Positions 51,439 to 54,522 of a stretch of DNA of 64,000 bases are shown here, in pieces (positions within the stretch are counted from its first letter, which is position 1; each line of letters opens with the position of its first letter). The notes under the pieces are model-generated. The model saw nothing but the letters and a program-made list of their open reading frames with translations. It had not been told where the DNA came from and did no database searches. Origin of the DNA: Gemmatimonadota bacterium (lineage in GTDB: Bacteria; Gemmatimonadota; Gemmatimonadetes; Longimicrobiales; Gaopeijiaceae); NCBI GenBank assembly GCA_030428885.1, contig JAUIEJ010000011.1, positions 185,279 to 249,278 on the forward strand. Reading direction: 5' to 3'. The position numbers and the translations under genes are program-made.

Positions 51439-52166
51439 GCAACGACGACCGCATCCTGGTGGTGATCCCCACCTACGACGAGCGGGAGAACCTGCCCAGG
51501 ATCGTTCCCTCGGTGCTGCTGGTGGACGACCGCATCGACGTGCTCGTGGTGGACGACAACTCCCCCGACGGTACGGGGGAGGTGGCCGACGAACTGGCCG
51601 AGCGCCACGCCCCCCGGGTCCATGTCTTCCATCGGGCGGGGAAGGAGGGCCTGGGGCGAGCCTATCTGGCGGGATTTCGCTGGGGACTGGAGGCCGGCTA
51701 CGGCTGGATCATGGAGATGGACGCCGACCTCTCCCATCGCCCCGAGGACCTTCCCGGCATGCTCGCCGCAGCGGAGCGGCACCCGGTGGTGGTGGGATCC
51801 CGGTACGTGGCGGGGCGGGTGACGGTGGTGAACTGGCCCATCAGCCGCCTCCTCATCAGCCTCTTCGGAAGCTGGTACGCCCGGACCATCACCCGGCTGC
51901 CGGTGCGCGACGCCACCGGCGGATTCAACTGCTTCCGCCGGGAGGTGCTGGAGGCCATCGACTTCGACCGGGTGGAATCCAACGGCTACGCCTTCCAGAT
52001 CGAGCTGAAGCTACGGGCGTGGCGGCAGGGCTTCCGACCCATCGAGGTGCCCATCGTCTTCACCGAGCGCGACACCGGCGAGTCGAAGATGTCGAAACGC
52101 ATCGTCCGGGAGGCCATCTGGAAGGTGTGGAAGCTGCGCTTTCTCGATCTGGTGGGGCGCCTGTGA
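51435..52166 (+). CDS. polyprenol-phosphate mannosyltransferase-like GT2
   Basis: 243 aa; starts inside the previous stop (ATGA). GT-A fold: ILVVIPTYDERENLPRIVPS, DVLVVDDNSPDGTGEVADEL, HRAGKEGLGRAYLAGFRWGL, YGWIMEMDADLSHRPEDLPG with D-x-D, VVGSRYVAGRVTVVNWPISR, LPVRDATGGFNCFRREVLEA, NGYAFQIELKLRAWRQGFRP, FTERDTGESKMSKRIVREAI. This is the soluble DPM1 form without C-terminal helices, distinct from the GT2 at 45687. Predicted to make polyprenyl-phosphate-mannose or a related donor. Confidence 0.95.
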   Translation: MSNDDRILVVIPTYDERENLPRIVPSVLLVDDRIDVLVVDDNSPDGTGEVADELAERHAPRVHVFHRAGKEGLGRAYLAGFRWGLEAGYGWIMEMDADLSHRPEDLPGMLAAAERHPVVVGSRYVAGRVTVVNWPISRLLISLFGSWYARTITRLPVRDATGGFNCFRREVLEAIDFDRVESNGYAFQIELKLRAWRQGFRPIEVPIVFTERDTGESKMSKRIVREAIWKVWKLRFLDLVGRL

Positions 52167-52900
52167 GCGCCGGGGGAGAGGCCGGGGGCGGGGGAGGGGA
52201 GCCCCGCATCGATCAGGCGTGGTACGACTCGTCCACCTACTTCGACGGCGACACCGAACACCTCCTGGACCTGGACAGCCCATTTCAGCGGTACCGGGTG
52301 GGCAACGTCCTGGCCATCGCCTCGCCGGCCCCCGACGACCGGGTGGTGGATCTGGGCTGCGGCTGGGGCACCTTCGAATGGGTGCTGGGCGACCGGGTGA
52401 AGGAGATCGTGGGTGTGGATTTCTCGGAGCGGAGCATCGAGCTCTGCAACGCCCGTCTGGCCGAGGAACCCCACGCCGCCGTGCGCTTCCTCCAGGCCGA
52501 CGCCGGCGACACGGGCCTCGAGGCCGGGGCGTACGACCTGGTGATCTGCGCCGACCTCTTCGAGCACCTCTATCCTGACGACTCGGCCCGGGTGGCCCGG
52601 GAAGCCTTCCGGCTGCTCCGGCCCGGCGGACGCTTCAGCGTGTGGACGCCGCACCGGGGGCACATCCTCGAGGTGCTCAAGAACAACCGCATCGTTCTGA
52701 AGCCCGACCCGAGCCACGTGGACTACAAGTCCATGGCACGGCTCCAGGGTCTTCTCACCGACGCCGGCTTCGAGATCGAGCGGGCCTACTACGCCGCCTC
52801 CCATCTCCCGGGACTGCGGATCGTGGAGCGGGCCCTCCAGGGCGTGGTGCCGCTCCTGCGGCGCCGCATCGCCGTCCTGGGTCGGAAGCCGGAGCGGTGA
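52163..52900 (+). CDS. SAM-dependent methyltransferase (class I)
   Basis: 245 aa from GTG 52163, overlapping the previous stop. Motif I is VVDLGCGWGTFEWVLGDRVK, motif II EIVGVDFSERSIELCNARLA, motif III RFLQADAGDTGLE, motif IV YDLVICADLFEHLYPDDSAR, then LLRPGGRFSVWTPHRGHILE. This is the UbiE/Methyltransf_11/23 group. In this operon it most likely methylates a sugar or lipid intermediate, though the substrate cannot be read off. Last gene of the glycan operon: a hairpin follows the stop, and 34 bases of its 3' end are duplicated just beyond. Confidence 0.92.
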   Translation: MSAGGEAGGGGGEPRIDQAWYDSSTYFDGDTEHLLDLDSPFQRYRVGNVLAIASPAPDDRVVDLGCGWGTFEWVLGDRVKEIVGVDFSERSIELCNARLAEEPHAAVRFLQADAGDTGLEAGAYDLVICADLFEHLYPDDSARVAREAFRLLRPGGRFSVWTPHRGHILEVLKNNRIVLKPDPSHVDYKSMARLQGLLTDAGFEIERAYYAASHLPGLRIVERALQGVVPLLRRRIAVLGRKPER

Positions 52901-52901
52901 G

Positions 52902-52918
52902 AGGGGCGGAACGCCCCT
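52902..52918 (+). terminator. hairpin after the glycan operon, likely terminator
   Basis: AGGGGCG-GAA-CGCCCCT is a perfect 7-bp stem with a 3-base loop starting 2 bases after the stop codon at 52900. Only TT follows, so termination may depend on Rho or be partial. Confidence 0.5.
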
Positions 52919-52919
52919 T

Positions 52920-52953
52920 CGGCGCCGCATCGCCGTCCTGGGTCGGAAGCCGG
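52920..52953. repeat. 34-bp direct duplication of the methyltransferase 3' end
   Basis: The 34 bases at 52859-52892, which encode the last residues of the methyltransferase (RRRIAVLGRKP), recur identically at 52920-52953 after the stop. The distance between copies is 61 bases. It marks the left border of the repeat island. Confidence 0.85.
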
Positions 52954-53038
52954 GGGATGAGGTCGCCCTTCGGCGGGGGGGGACCATCGCGCAGGGATCG
53001 ACATCGAGGAGGATTCCGCCCTCGTTTCTCCGCAATTT

Positions 53039-53062
53039 TACATAATGTATATTATACGACAT
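53039..53062. promoter_or_regulatory. AT-rich palindromic box with PadR-type ATGT-N10-ACAT
   Basis: TACAT-A-ATGTA (53039-53049) is a perfect palindrome, overlapped by GTATA-T-TATAC (53047-53057) and by ATGT (53045-53048)-N10-ACAT (53059-53062), the consensus described for PadR regulators. It is the most AT-rich spot in the window. No gene starts close by on either strand. Confidence 0.45.
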
Positions 53063-53126
53063 TGTGGATCATGTGGAGAACCGGGGCGATCCACCCCTGC
53101 CGCGCCAGGCGCCCCCGCCCGGCAGG

Positions 53127-53535
53127 CCCGCGCCCCCAACCCTCCACAAGTCCGCGATTCCTGAAGGAAGAGTCGGTTTGGGGGCGCTGGAGCGCCCCCA
53201 ATCATCCACACCACGCGGCGGCCGAGCCGCTTGGGGTCACTTGATGCGGCCAGGCGCCCCCAATCATCCACACGGGCCCGCCTCTCGGGCCTCGGGGTGA
53301 CTTGGGGGCGTTCGGAAAGACGGCGGGATCCGGCCCCGCGCCCCCAACCCACCACAACGCCGCCATTCCGTAAGGAGATGTCAGTTTGGGGGCGCTGGAG
53401 CGCCCCCAATCATCCACACCACGCGGCGCTCGAGCCGGTTCGGGTCACTTGATGCGGCCAGGCGCCCCCAATCATCCACACGGGCCCGCCTCTCGGGCCT
53501 CGGGGTGACTTGGGGGCGTTCGGAAAGACGGCGGG
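53127..53535. repeat. tandem duplication of a 208-bp unit
   Basis: Two copies with a period of exactly 208 bases (53127-53334 and 53335-53535). Each contains CGCGCCCCCAACC at the left, then TTGGGGGCGCT-GG-AGCGCCCCCAA (a 24-base hairpin at 53178-53201 and 53386-53409), two direct copies of GCGCCCCCAATCATCCACAC, and CTTGGGGGCGTTCGG at the right. Copies are near identical except for the segment after the first 15 bases. Confidence 0.88.
53178..53201. repeat. perfect 11-bp-arm hairpin in repeat copy 1
   Basis: TTGGGGGCGCT and AGCGCCCCCAA are exact inverses around GG. The identical hairpin is at 53386-53409 in copy 2. The right arm is the start of the 20-mer GCGCCCCCAATCATCCACAC found at 53192, 53254, 53400 and 53462. 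Confidence 0.85.
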
Positions 53536-53735
53536 TGGACGCCTCCGGGGTCGGCTCCGCGGGGCGTTGGGAAAGACGGCGGGTGGACGCCTCCGGGGTC
53601 GGCTCCGCGGGGCGTTCGGAAAGGCGCGGGTGGACGCCCTCGGGGTCGGCTCCGCGGGGCGTTGGGAAAGACGGCGGGTGGACGCCCTCGGGGTCGGCTC
53701 CACGGGGCGTTCGGAAAGGCGCGGGTCGAAGGGCG
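53513..53735. repeat. 47/48-bp tandem array, about 4.5 copies
   Basis: The word CGTT(C/G)GGAAA recurs at 53517, 53565, 53613, 53660 and 53708 (periods 48, 48, 47, 48), and a partial unit starts at 53734. Units share GGGTGGACGCC(T/C)(T/C)CGGGGTCGGCTCC in the middle. Two unit types, AAAGACGGCGGG and AAAGGCGCGGG, alternate in the later copies. Confidence 0.88.
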
Positions 53736-53738
53736 TTA

Positions 53739-53775
53739 CGAAAACGCCGCCGGGACCCGAGGCCCCGGCGGCGTT
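53739..53775 (-). terminator. rho-independent terminator of the TPR gene
   Basis: AACGCCGCCGGG and CCCGGCGGCGTT form a perfect 12-bp stem with a 9-base loop (53743-53775). On the minus strand it is followed by TTTTCG. It lies 40 bases beyond the stop of the TPR gene. Confidence 0.85.
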
Positions 53776-53814
53776 CCGATCTTTCGGTTGTTCCCGGCTC
53801 GCGGCGGGCCGACC

Positions 53815-54522
53815 TCAGCCGTTCATGTGGGCCTGGGCCTCGCCCAGGCGCATCTCGTAGAGGCCCTGCTGCTCCACGGAGTGCTCCTCGTCGTCCAGGA
53901 GACGCTGATAGAGCTCGGCGGCGCCGGCGAAGTTGCCGGCGTTCATGCGGATCCGGGCGGCGTCTTCCAGGGCCTGGATGCGCTGGAAGGCCAGCTCGGA
54001 CTGATCGGCGATGCGGAGGTAGAGCCCCTCGGCGTCGGCGAGCTGGCCCTGGGCCTCCATGGCCCGGGCCTGGAGCGTGGCGATCTGGACGCCCATGGGC
54101 TCCCGCAGCGACAGGCCGGCGCCTTCCAGGGCGGTCAGGGCCTGGCCGGCCTGGCCCCCGTCGAGGTAGAGCTGGCCCAGCAGCAGCCGGGCTTCGGCGG
54201 CGTACGGCGTACCGGCGAACCGCTCCAGGTACTGCTCCAGGGAGATCTTGGTGGCCTCCGGATCGCTCTGACCCACGGACTGGGCGATGCGCTCCAACTC
54301 GGCCACGGCGGTTTCGGCCTGGGTCCCGCGCCAGTTCACGTAGTAGATGGAGGCCAGAATCACCACCGCCACGGCGACGCCGAAGAGGATCAGGACCTGG
54401 CTGTTGTTCCGGGCCCAGCCGCTGAACTCGAGTACGCGAGCGACGAAGACGTCGTCGGCCTCGGCGGCCTGCTTCTGCTCACCGCCGTGGCGGCGGCTGG
54501 AGCCGGGGTGGCGCTTCGCCAT
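53815..54522 (-). CDS. single-pass membrane TPR protein, YfgM-like
   Basis: 235 aa. A basic cytoplasmic start (MAKRHPGSSRRHGGEQKQ), one membrane helix at about 42-62 (VLILFGVAVAVVILASIYYV), then a periplasmic domain with TPR-like helices: AVAELERIAQSVGQSDPEAT, YAAEARLLLGQLYLDGGQAG, VQIATLQARAMEAQGQLADA, LYLRIADQSELAFQRIQALE, IRMNAGNFAGAAELYQRLLD. This is the layout of YfgM, a periplasmic partner of the SecYEG translocon and PpiD. The helix immediately precedes TPRs and no BamB follows, so the assignment is by architecture. Ends at a strong terminator. Confidence 0.82.
   Translation of the reverse strand: MAKRHPGSSRRHGGEQKQAAEADDVFVARVLEFSGWARNNSQVLILFGVAVAVVILASIYYVNWRGTQAETAVAELERIAQSVGQSDPEATKISLEQYLERFAGTPYAAEARLLLGQLYLDGGQAGQALTALEGAGLSLREPMGVQIATLQARAMEAQGQLADAEGLYLRIADQSELAFQRIQALEDAARIRMNAGNFAGAAELYQRLLDDEEHSVEQQGLYEMRLGEAQAHMNG

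Follow-up and report, generated by a model that had tools for sequence, protein, structure and literature searches.

Bacterial sister chromosomes that have become joined are separated at the dif site. In the dif/XerCD-FtsK system (PMC3025954, PMC5357621, PMC2680272), dif is a single-copy, site-specific recombination site of 28 bp in an 11-6-11 arrangement, and the sequence GGGNAGGG, which is the E. coli KOPS consensus and orients FtsK (PMC2680272), is polarised towards it. Several small palindromic repeats have also been described in bacteria. REP sequences and BIMEs are short, extragenic palindromic units of alternating orientation and regular spacing, which lie mainly between convergent or unidirectional genes, are species-specific and are amplified in tandem (PMC2817692, PMC3733652), and CGTC-tagged REPs are palindromic repeats without a dedicated transposase (PMC3733652). 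ERIC/RU and other bacterial MITEs are intergenic elements of 100-200 nt with inverted ends, strong secondary structure and no coding capacity (PMC2759123), and BOX of Streptococcus pneumoniae is modular, its internal tandem modules varying in number, and is enriched between convergent genes (PMC3049150). The locus described here shows the listed traits of dif together with a repeat that shares those of the palindromic families and is a variant among them. It lies in a 64-kb stretch of DNA (the window, in whose positions all plain coordinates are given) from the Longimicrobiales (Gemmatimonadota) genome G000, which comprises 5.39 Mb in 23 contigs; genomes G001 to G005 are its congeners. We regard it as likely that the locus is a chromosome terminus with dif and adjoining non-autonomous, BIME/MITE-like repeats, which are tolerated there and do not serve dimer resolution. 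The demonstrated parts of this reading are the copies, their structure, their intergenic and mostly convergent placement, the empty orthologous sites, and dif with its KOPS-like polarity. The features of the locus are as follows.

52163..52900, + strand: SAM methyltransferase gene upstream of the island (Pfam PF13649/PF08241)
52851..52892, + strand: methyltransferase gene, 3′ terminal part from which a 42-nt duplication derives (direct repeat D4)
52912..52953, + strand: duplicate of the methyltransferase gene end, 95% (direct repeat D4)
53035..53062, − strand: predicted dif site, 11-6-11 bp (arms, single copy per genome, KOPS polarity)
53127..53317, − strand: palindromic element copy 1 (arms; profile match G000:C1:238405-238595, E 2.4e-37)
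53178..53201, no strand assigned: core junction palindrome (c/c′) of copy 1 (repeat and arm analysis)
53335..53525, − strand: palindromic element copy 2 (TRF; profile match G000:C1:238613-238803, E 7.9e-37)
53386..53409, no strand assigned: core junction palindrome (c/c′) of copy 2 (repeat and arm analysis)
53513..53726, + strand: 47/48-bp tandem array of 4.5 copies (TRF; direct repeats D1)
53743..53775, − strand: GC-rich hairpin 3′ of the TPR gene, outside the repeat (sequence; counterpart in G001)
53815..54522, − strand: TPR_21 protein gene, downstream and convergent (Pfam PF09976)

The preliminary description had presented this gap as a gene-free island of repeats. The repeats are there, but they have copies elsewhere in the genome and do not make up the whole island: positions 53035-53062 hold a single-copy, non-repeat sequence that is predicted to be an ordinary dif site. 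On the minus strand it consists of a XerC arm (ATGTCGTATAA), the centre TATACA and a XerD arm (TTATGTAAAAT), that is, two 11-bp arms that flank a 6-bp centre in imperfect dyad symmetry. Compared with E. coli dif as given in its record (GGTGCGCATAA-TGTATA-TTATGTTAAAT), the XerD arm is identical at 10 of 11 positions and the XerC arm at 6 of 11. The AT-rich 22-mer of the site matches a single place in each of five genomes of the genus, always in the corresponding methyltransferase/TPR gap, a constancy that further likens it to the described system; the sixth genome, G005, gave no match, and window shuffles led us to expect 0 chance matches. An earlier proposal that the island is a recombination hotspot thus holds insofar as the gap contains a site-specific recombination site, although that site itself had been overlooked.

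The polarity of GGGNAGGG flips at dif. In the window 30 of 34 occurrences are directed to dif (p=6e-6), as are 90 of 121 over 400 kb of G001 (p=8e-8), and the best polarity breakpoint brackets dif in G000 and G002 and lies 1.9 kb off in G001. Among patterns of its form the polarity of GGGNAGGG ranked 1st of 1919 and 2nd of 4179, the most dif-polarised such pattern in the window being GGGNAGGG itself, and the polarity held in genes of both strands, so that gene strand does not explain it. The gene strand bias in G001 likewise flips at dif, and coarse GC-skew samples of this genome were positive in 10 of 12 cases before dif and in 2 of 10 after it; over a contiguous 400 kb of G001 there was no sharp local GC-skew flip at the site. 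A signature scan of G001 from 3.18 to 3.58 Mb, within 200 kb of the antipode of dif, found no dnaA, and a strict signature regex run on the window and on partial G001 and G002 sequence found no Xer gene. Because dif is present and the polarity of GGGNAGGG reverses there, the chromosome is, on sequence evidence, taken to have its replication terminus at the island. A terminus/dif locus is thereby placed in the little-studied phylum Gemmatimonadota, and GGGNAGGG guidance is supported from sequence alone. The sole unusual trait relative to the described dif/XerCD-FtsK system is the private repeat array adjoining the site. In G001, GGGCGGGG and GGGNGGGG showed a polarity similar to that of GGGNAGGG.

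The repeats of the preliminary description were all recovered. The duplicated gene end, given there as 34 bp, is enclosed in a 42-nt duplication of 95% identity, and the two 208-bp tandem units are present at 53127-53535 (TRF and direct repeats), where copies 1 and 2 of the palindromic element follow each other head to tail at 208-bp spacing with 93% identity, starting about 65 bp from dif. The 24-nt palindromes (TTGGGGGCGCTGGAGCGCCCCCAA) lie at the two core junctions and consist, strictly, of a perfect 10-bp stem with a 4-nt TGGA loop; the 20-mer GCGCCCCCAATCATCCACAC occurs in four exact copies in the island; and the 47/48-bp array, whose copies are 92% identical (TRF), probably grew from the outer end of copy 2, because it starts inside that end. 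TRF scored the island arrays at 725 and 351-377, whereas all other arrays in the window scored at most 71. The repeats are therefore real and amplified locally in tandem, and the locus differs among species, as had been surmised. The GC-rich hairpin at 53743-53775 is probably the terminator of the TPR gene; a consensus terminator scan made no call at this hairpin. In G001, a near-identical GC-rich hairpin stands behind the TPR gene in the same place (L061:2329-2363).

The preliminary description had also proposed a genome search for the 20-mer and had named invariance in all relatives together with the lack of other copies as evidence against its reading of the island. The search gave a fifth exact copy and 24 copies with 1-2 mismatches outside the island, with 0 hits for the reversed-pattern control, so that many copies exist in the genome. 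Extraction of these genomic sites recovered an element of about 180 nt, of which 29-30 units could be aligned almost without gaps. A single 20-nt motif (about GTTGGGGNGANTTGGGGGCG) recurs in it as six arms of alternating orientation, which form three inverted-repeat modules at a pitch of about 62 bp with tight junction palindromes between them. The ends of the element match: among the first 19 positions of the consensus, 18 agree in inverted form. The element differs from ERIC/RU, since the inner modules here repeat the end motif, and from BOX, in which distinct A, B and C types stand in place of versions of one inverted-repeat module; the compound unit is also larger than the CGTC-tagged REPs. 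Inventories of G000, which rest on pattern and profile searches, comprised about 43 units by profile search, some of them in arrays of 2-5, at 27 sites when separate places are counted. The locus is chromosomal and its unit is an intergenic element dispersed over these sites, which argues against the iteron-like sites suggested earlier.

An assembly artefact as the source of the repeats is scarcely credible. G000 is a draft genome, and its contigs C19 (at the end) and C23 (at the start) terminate within element arrays, as is expected where assemblers break at repeats; the repeat number there is uncertain because the contigs end inside the arrays. The units, however, differ by several per cent, stand singly at many sites and have counterparts in similar tandem arrays of the single-contig genome G001, and control patterns gave 0 hits. 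For the repeat family as a whole, unit divergence, single copies and the G001 arrays refute this explanation.

The placement of the element was analysed with genes called by a simple codon-usage finder made for this purpose. At 22 sites examined, 0 copies lay inside called genes. Of the 22 sites, 13 lay between convergent genes, a setting that applied to 5 of 57 gaps in the background (p=8e-6); the element avoided divergent gaps (p=2e-4). This convergent bias would suit a repeat that encodes a structured RNA or a bidirectional terminator and is retained between convergent genes, and it is joined by the strong folding of the unit as a single strand (z −3.5) and by compensatory changes at two base pairs of the core palindrome. 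Yet the DNA palindrome accounts for the folding, covariation over three hairpins or three modules was no higher than in shuffles, an Rfam search returned nothing above threshold, and the repeat lacks a U-tract terminator signal. We therefore consider such an RNA or terminator quite improbable, and the dedicated repetitive RNA of the preliminary description, which met the same lack of Rfam match and of structure-wide covariation, finds no backing.

At least seven sites have an orthologous gap in G001, G003 or G004 that is short and carries no element, which shows that the presence of the element at these sites is a lineage-specific gain. Such empty sites, the fixed length and the matching inverted ends (18 of 19 positions in G000 and 25 of 26 in the G001 family described below) would be expected of a MITE derived from a classical DNA transposon with common terminal inverted repeats. 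This origin is possible but unlikely: no shared target-site duplication was seen among 12 G000 and 18 G001 insertions, whereas ERIC/RU have TA target duplications; internal modules that repeat the end motif are unusual for a deletion derivative; and no parental transposon was seen, the genome-wide transposase search being for PF01797 only. The core motifs also gave no matches in scans of named genomes and viral contigs.

The alternating palindromes, regular spacing, extragenic position and convergent bias agree equally with described REPs (PMC2817692, PMC3733652), and 23 of 29 units have a GT[AG]G head on core arm c, which is consistent with a true REP/BIME whose RAYT (an IS200/IS605-like Y1 transposase) has disappeared or is encoded in the few per cent of the genome that the assembly lacks. 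However, this head tetranucleotide characterises only one of the six arms, being found in 0-6 of 29 units in each of the other five, and the Y1/RAYT profile PF01797, which recovered the E. coli positive control, matched nothing in G000 or its five congeners, of which G001 and G002 are single-contig genomes. Moreover, the element is a fixed three-module unit with matching ends and amounts to tens and not hundreds of copies (43 units, against the more than 100 usual for REPs). A true REP/BIME is thus distinctly unlikely.

The element accordingly resembles both classes, of which REP/BIME fails on a cognate RAYT and MITE on target duplication, and we favour tolerated, non-autonomous repeats. Copies of these may have spread through a trans-acting putative transposase or recombinase working on the palindromes, and they would persist where nothing breaks, that is, in 3′-3′ gaps. 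Unequal exchange or replication slippage may then have expanded them, giving rise to the 208-bp duplication and the 47/48-bp array. A palindromic family without RAYT offers a tractable case for asking what moves or renews REP-like repeats without the usual transposase.

The family is private in sequence, while related soil bacteria have private versions of their own and sister species show a similar layout. None of 96 relatives contains the G000 core pattern. The orthologous gap of G001 holds a different repeat of 191 nt in two copies that are 99% identical. This repeat belongs to a family with about 38 units, spread over about 25 sites that include the neighbourhood of the G001 dif, and is virtually missing from other relatives. 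The G001 element is equally gapless, with a length of 184 nt; its ends match, and its palindromes are centred at 59.5 and 123, compared with 58 and 120.5 in G000. The alignment score between the two elements was no better than that of shuffled sequences and the G000 model does not detect the G001 elements, so the link between them is one of architecture only. G003 has its own family, with the layout a-b / b′-c / c′-d as in G000 and a 61-bp pitch; an example of its arms is TGGAGGGTTGTGGTCG, compared with TGGAGGGTTGGGGGCG in G000. When the G000 profile was run over the whole genus, its one match outside G000 fell on a G003 element of this family (E 0.003), and a local search also aligned the two in part, which together support homology of the G000 element and its diverged counterpart in G003. 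A 400-kb sample of G002 contained no such elements. In G003, an array on contig C46 (L198:1134-1640) comprises at least eight 61-bp modules that are repeated singly and not as three-module units, and a second private family consists of near-perfect palindromes of about 95-110 bp with GAGCCGCGCTTCGCTTC arms (L170:4981-5075, L171:11101-11700).

These differences could also be read as replacement of the motif in an ancient element. The three-module element would then be old across the genus, with its recognition motif swapped wholesale in each species (TTGGGGGCG in G000, TTGTGGTCG in G003 and GATTGGCACG in G001); all copies in a genome would change together and track a putative DNA-binding or nuclease partner, and the copies beside dif would take part in terminus handling. 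We hold this to be improbable.

The content of the dif gap varies: repeats occupy it in G000 and G001, G003 has genes there, G002 a longer insert and G004 about 600 bp free of repeats. Because the extra DNA there differs by species, the space next to dif appears to tolerate insertions. Arrays of private repeats adjoin dif on the same side in G000 and G001, and tandem palindromes of E. coli BIMEs can bind gyrase (PMC2817692), which might suggest a functional terminus element, with arrays beside dif that aid FtsK/Xer, decatenation or fork arrest and are for that reason present in two sister species. Against this, G000 has 26 further sites with the same elements, G003 and G004 have no such array at dif, and the G000 and G001 sequences are wholly different, so that a role of this kind is very improbable. 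Three gaps, one of them the dif gap, carry elements in both G000 and G001. This number is above a rough random expectation and could reflect site preference or function instead of tolerance, yet the shared convergent bias makes the signal weak. Most likely, the element stands beside dif since the gap there is tolerant, convergent and prone to insertion, and not because of a role in dimer resolution. No finding ties the repeats to dif function or to glycan variation; the link to variable surface-glycan genes that had been proposed for the island gained no evidence, the repeat family being scattered genome-wide.

Further repeats were observed among the relatives. G024, which belongs to another genus, has a private dispersed repeat of about 300 bp with 30-bp inverted ends and 97% identity (L183:5235-5534, L189:15898-16166, L185:19279-19643). 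In both G000 and G001, a stretch of about 250 bp with the 3′ end of a tRNA is duplicated downstream of the tRNA gene and is followed by each species' own palindromic element (L009:3135-3483, L113:2944-3336).
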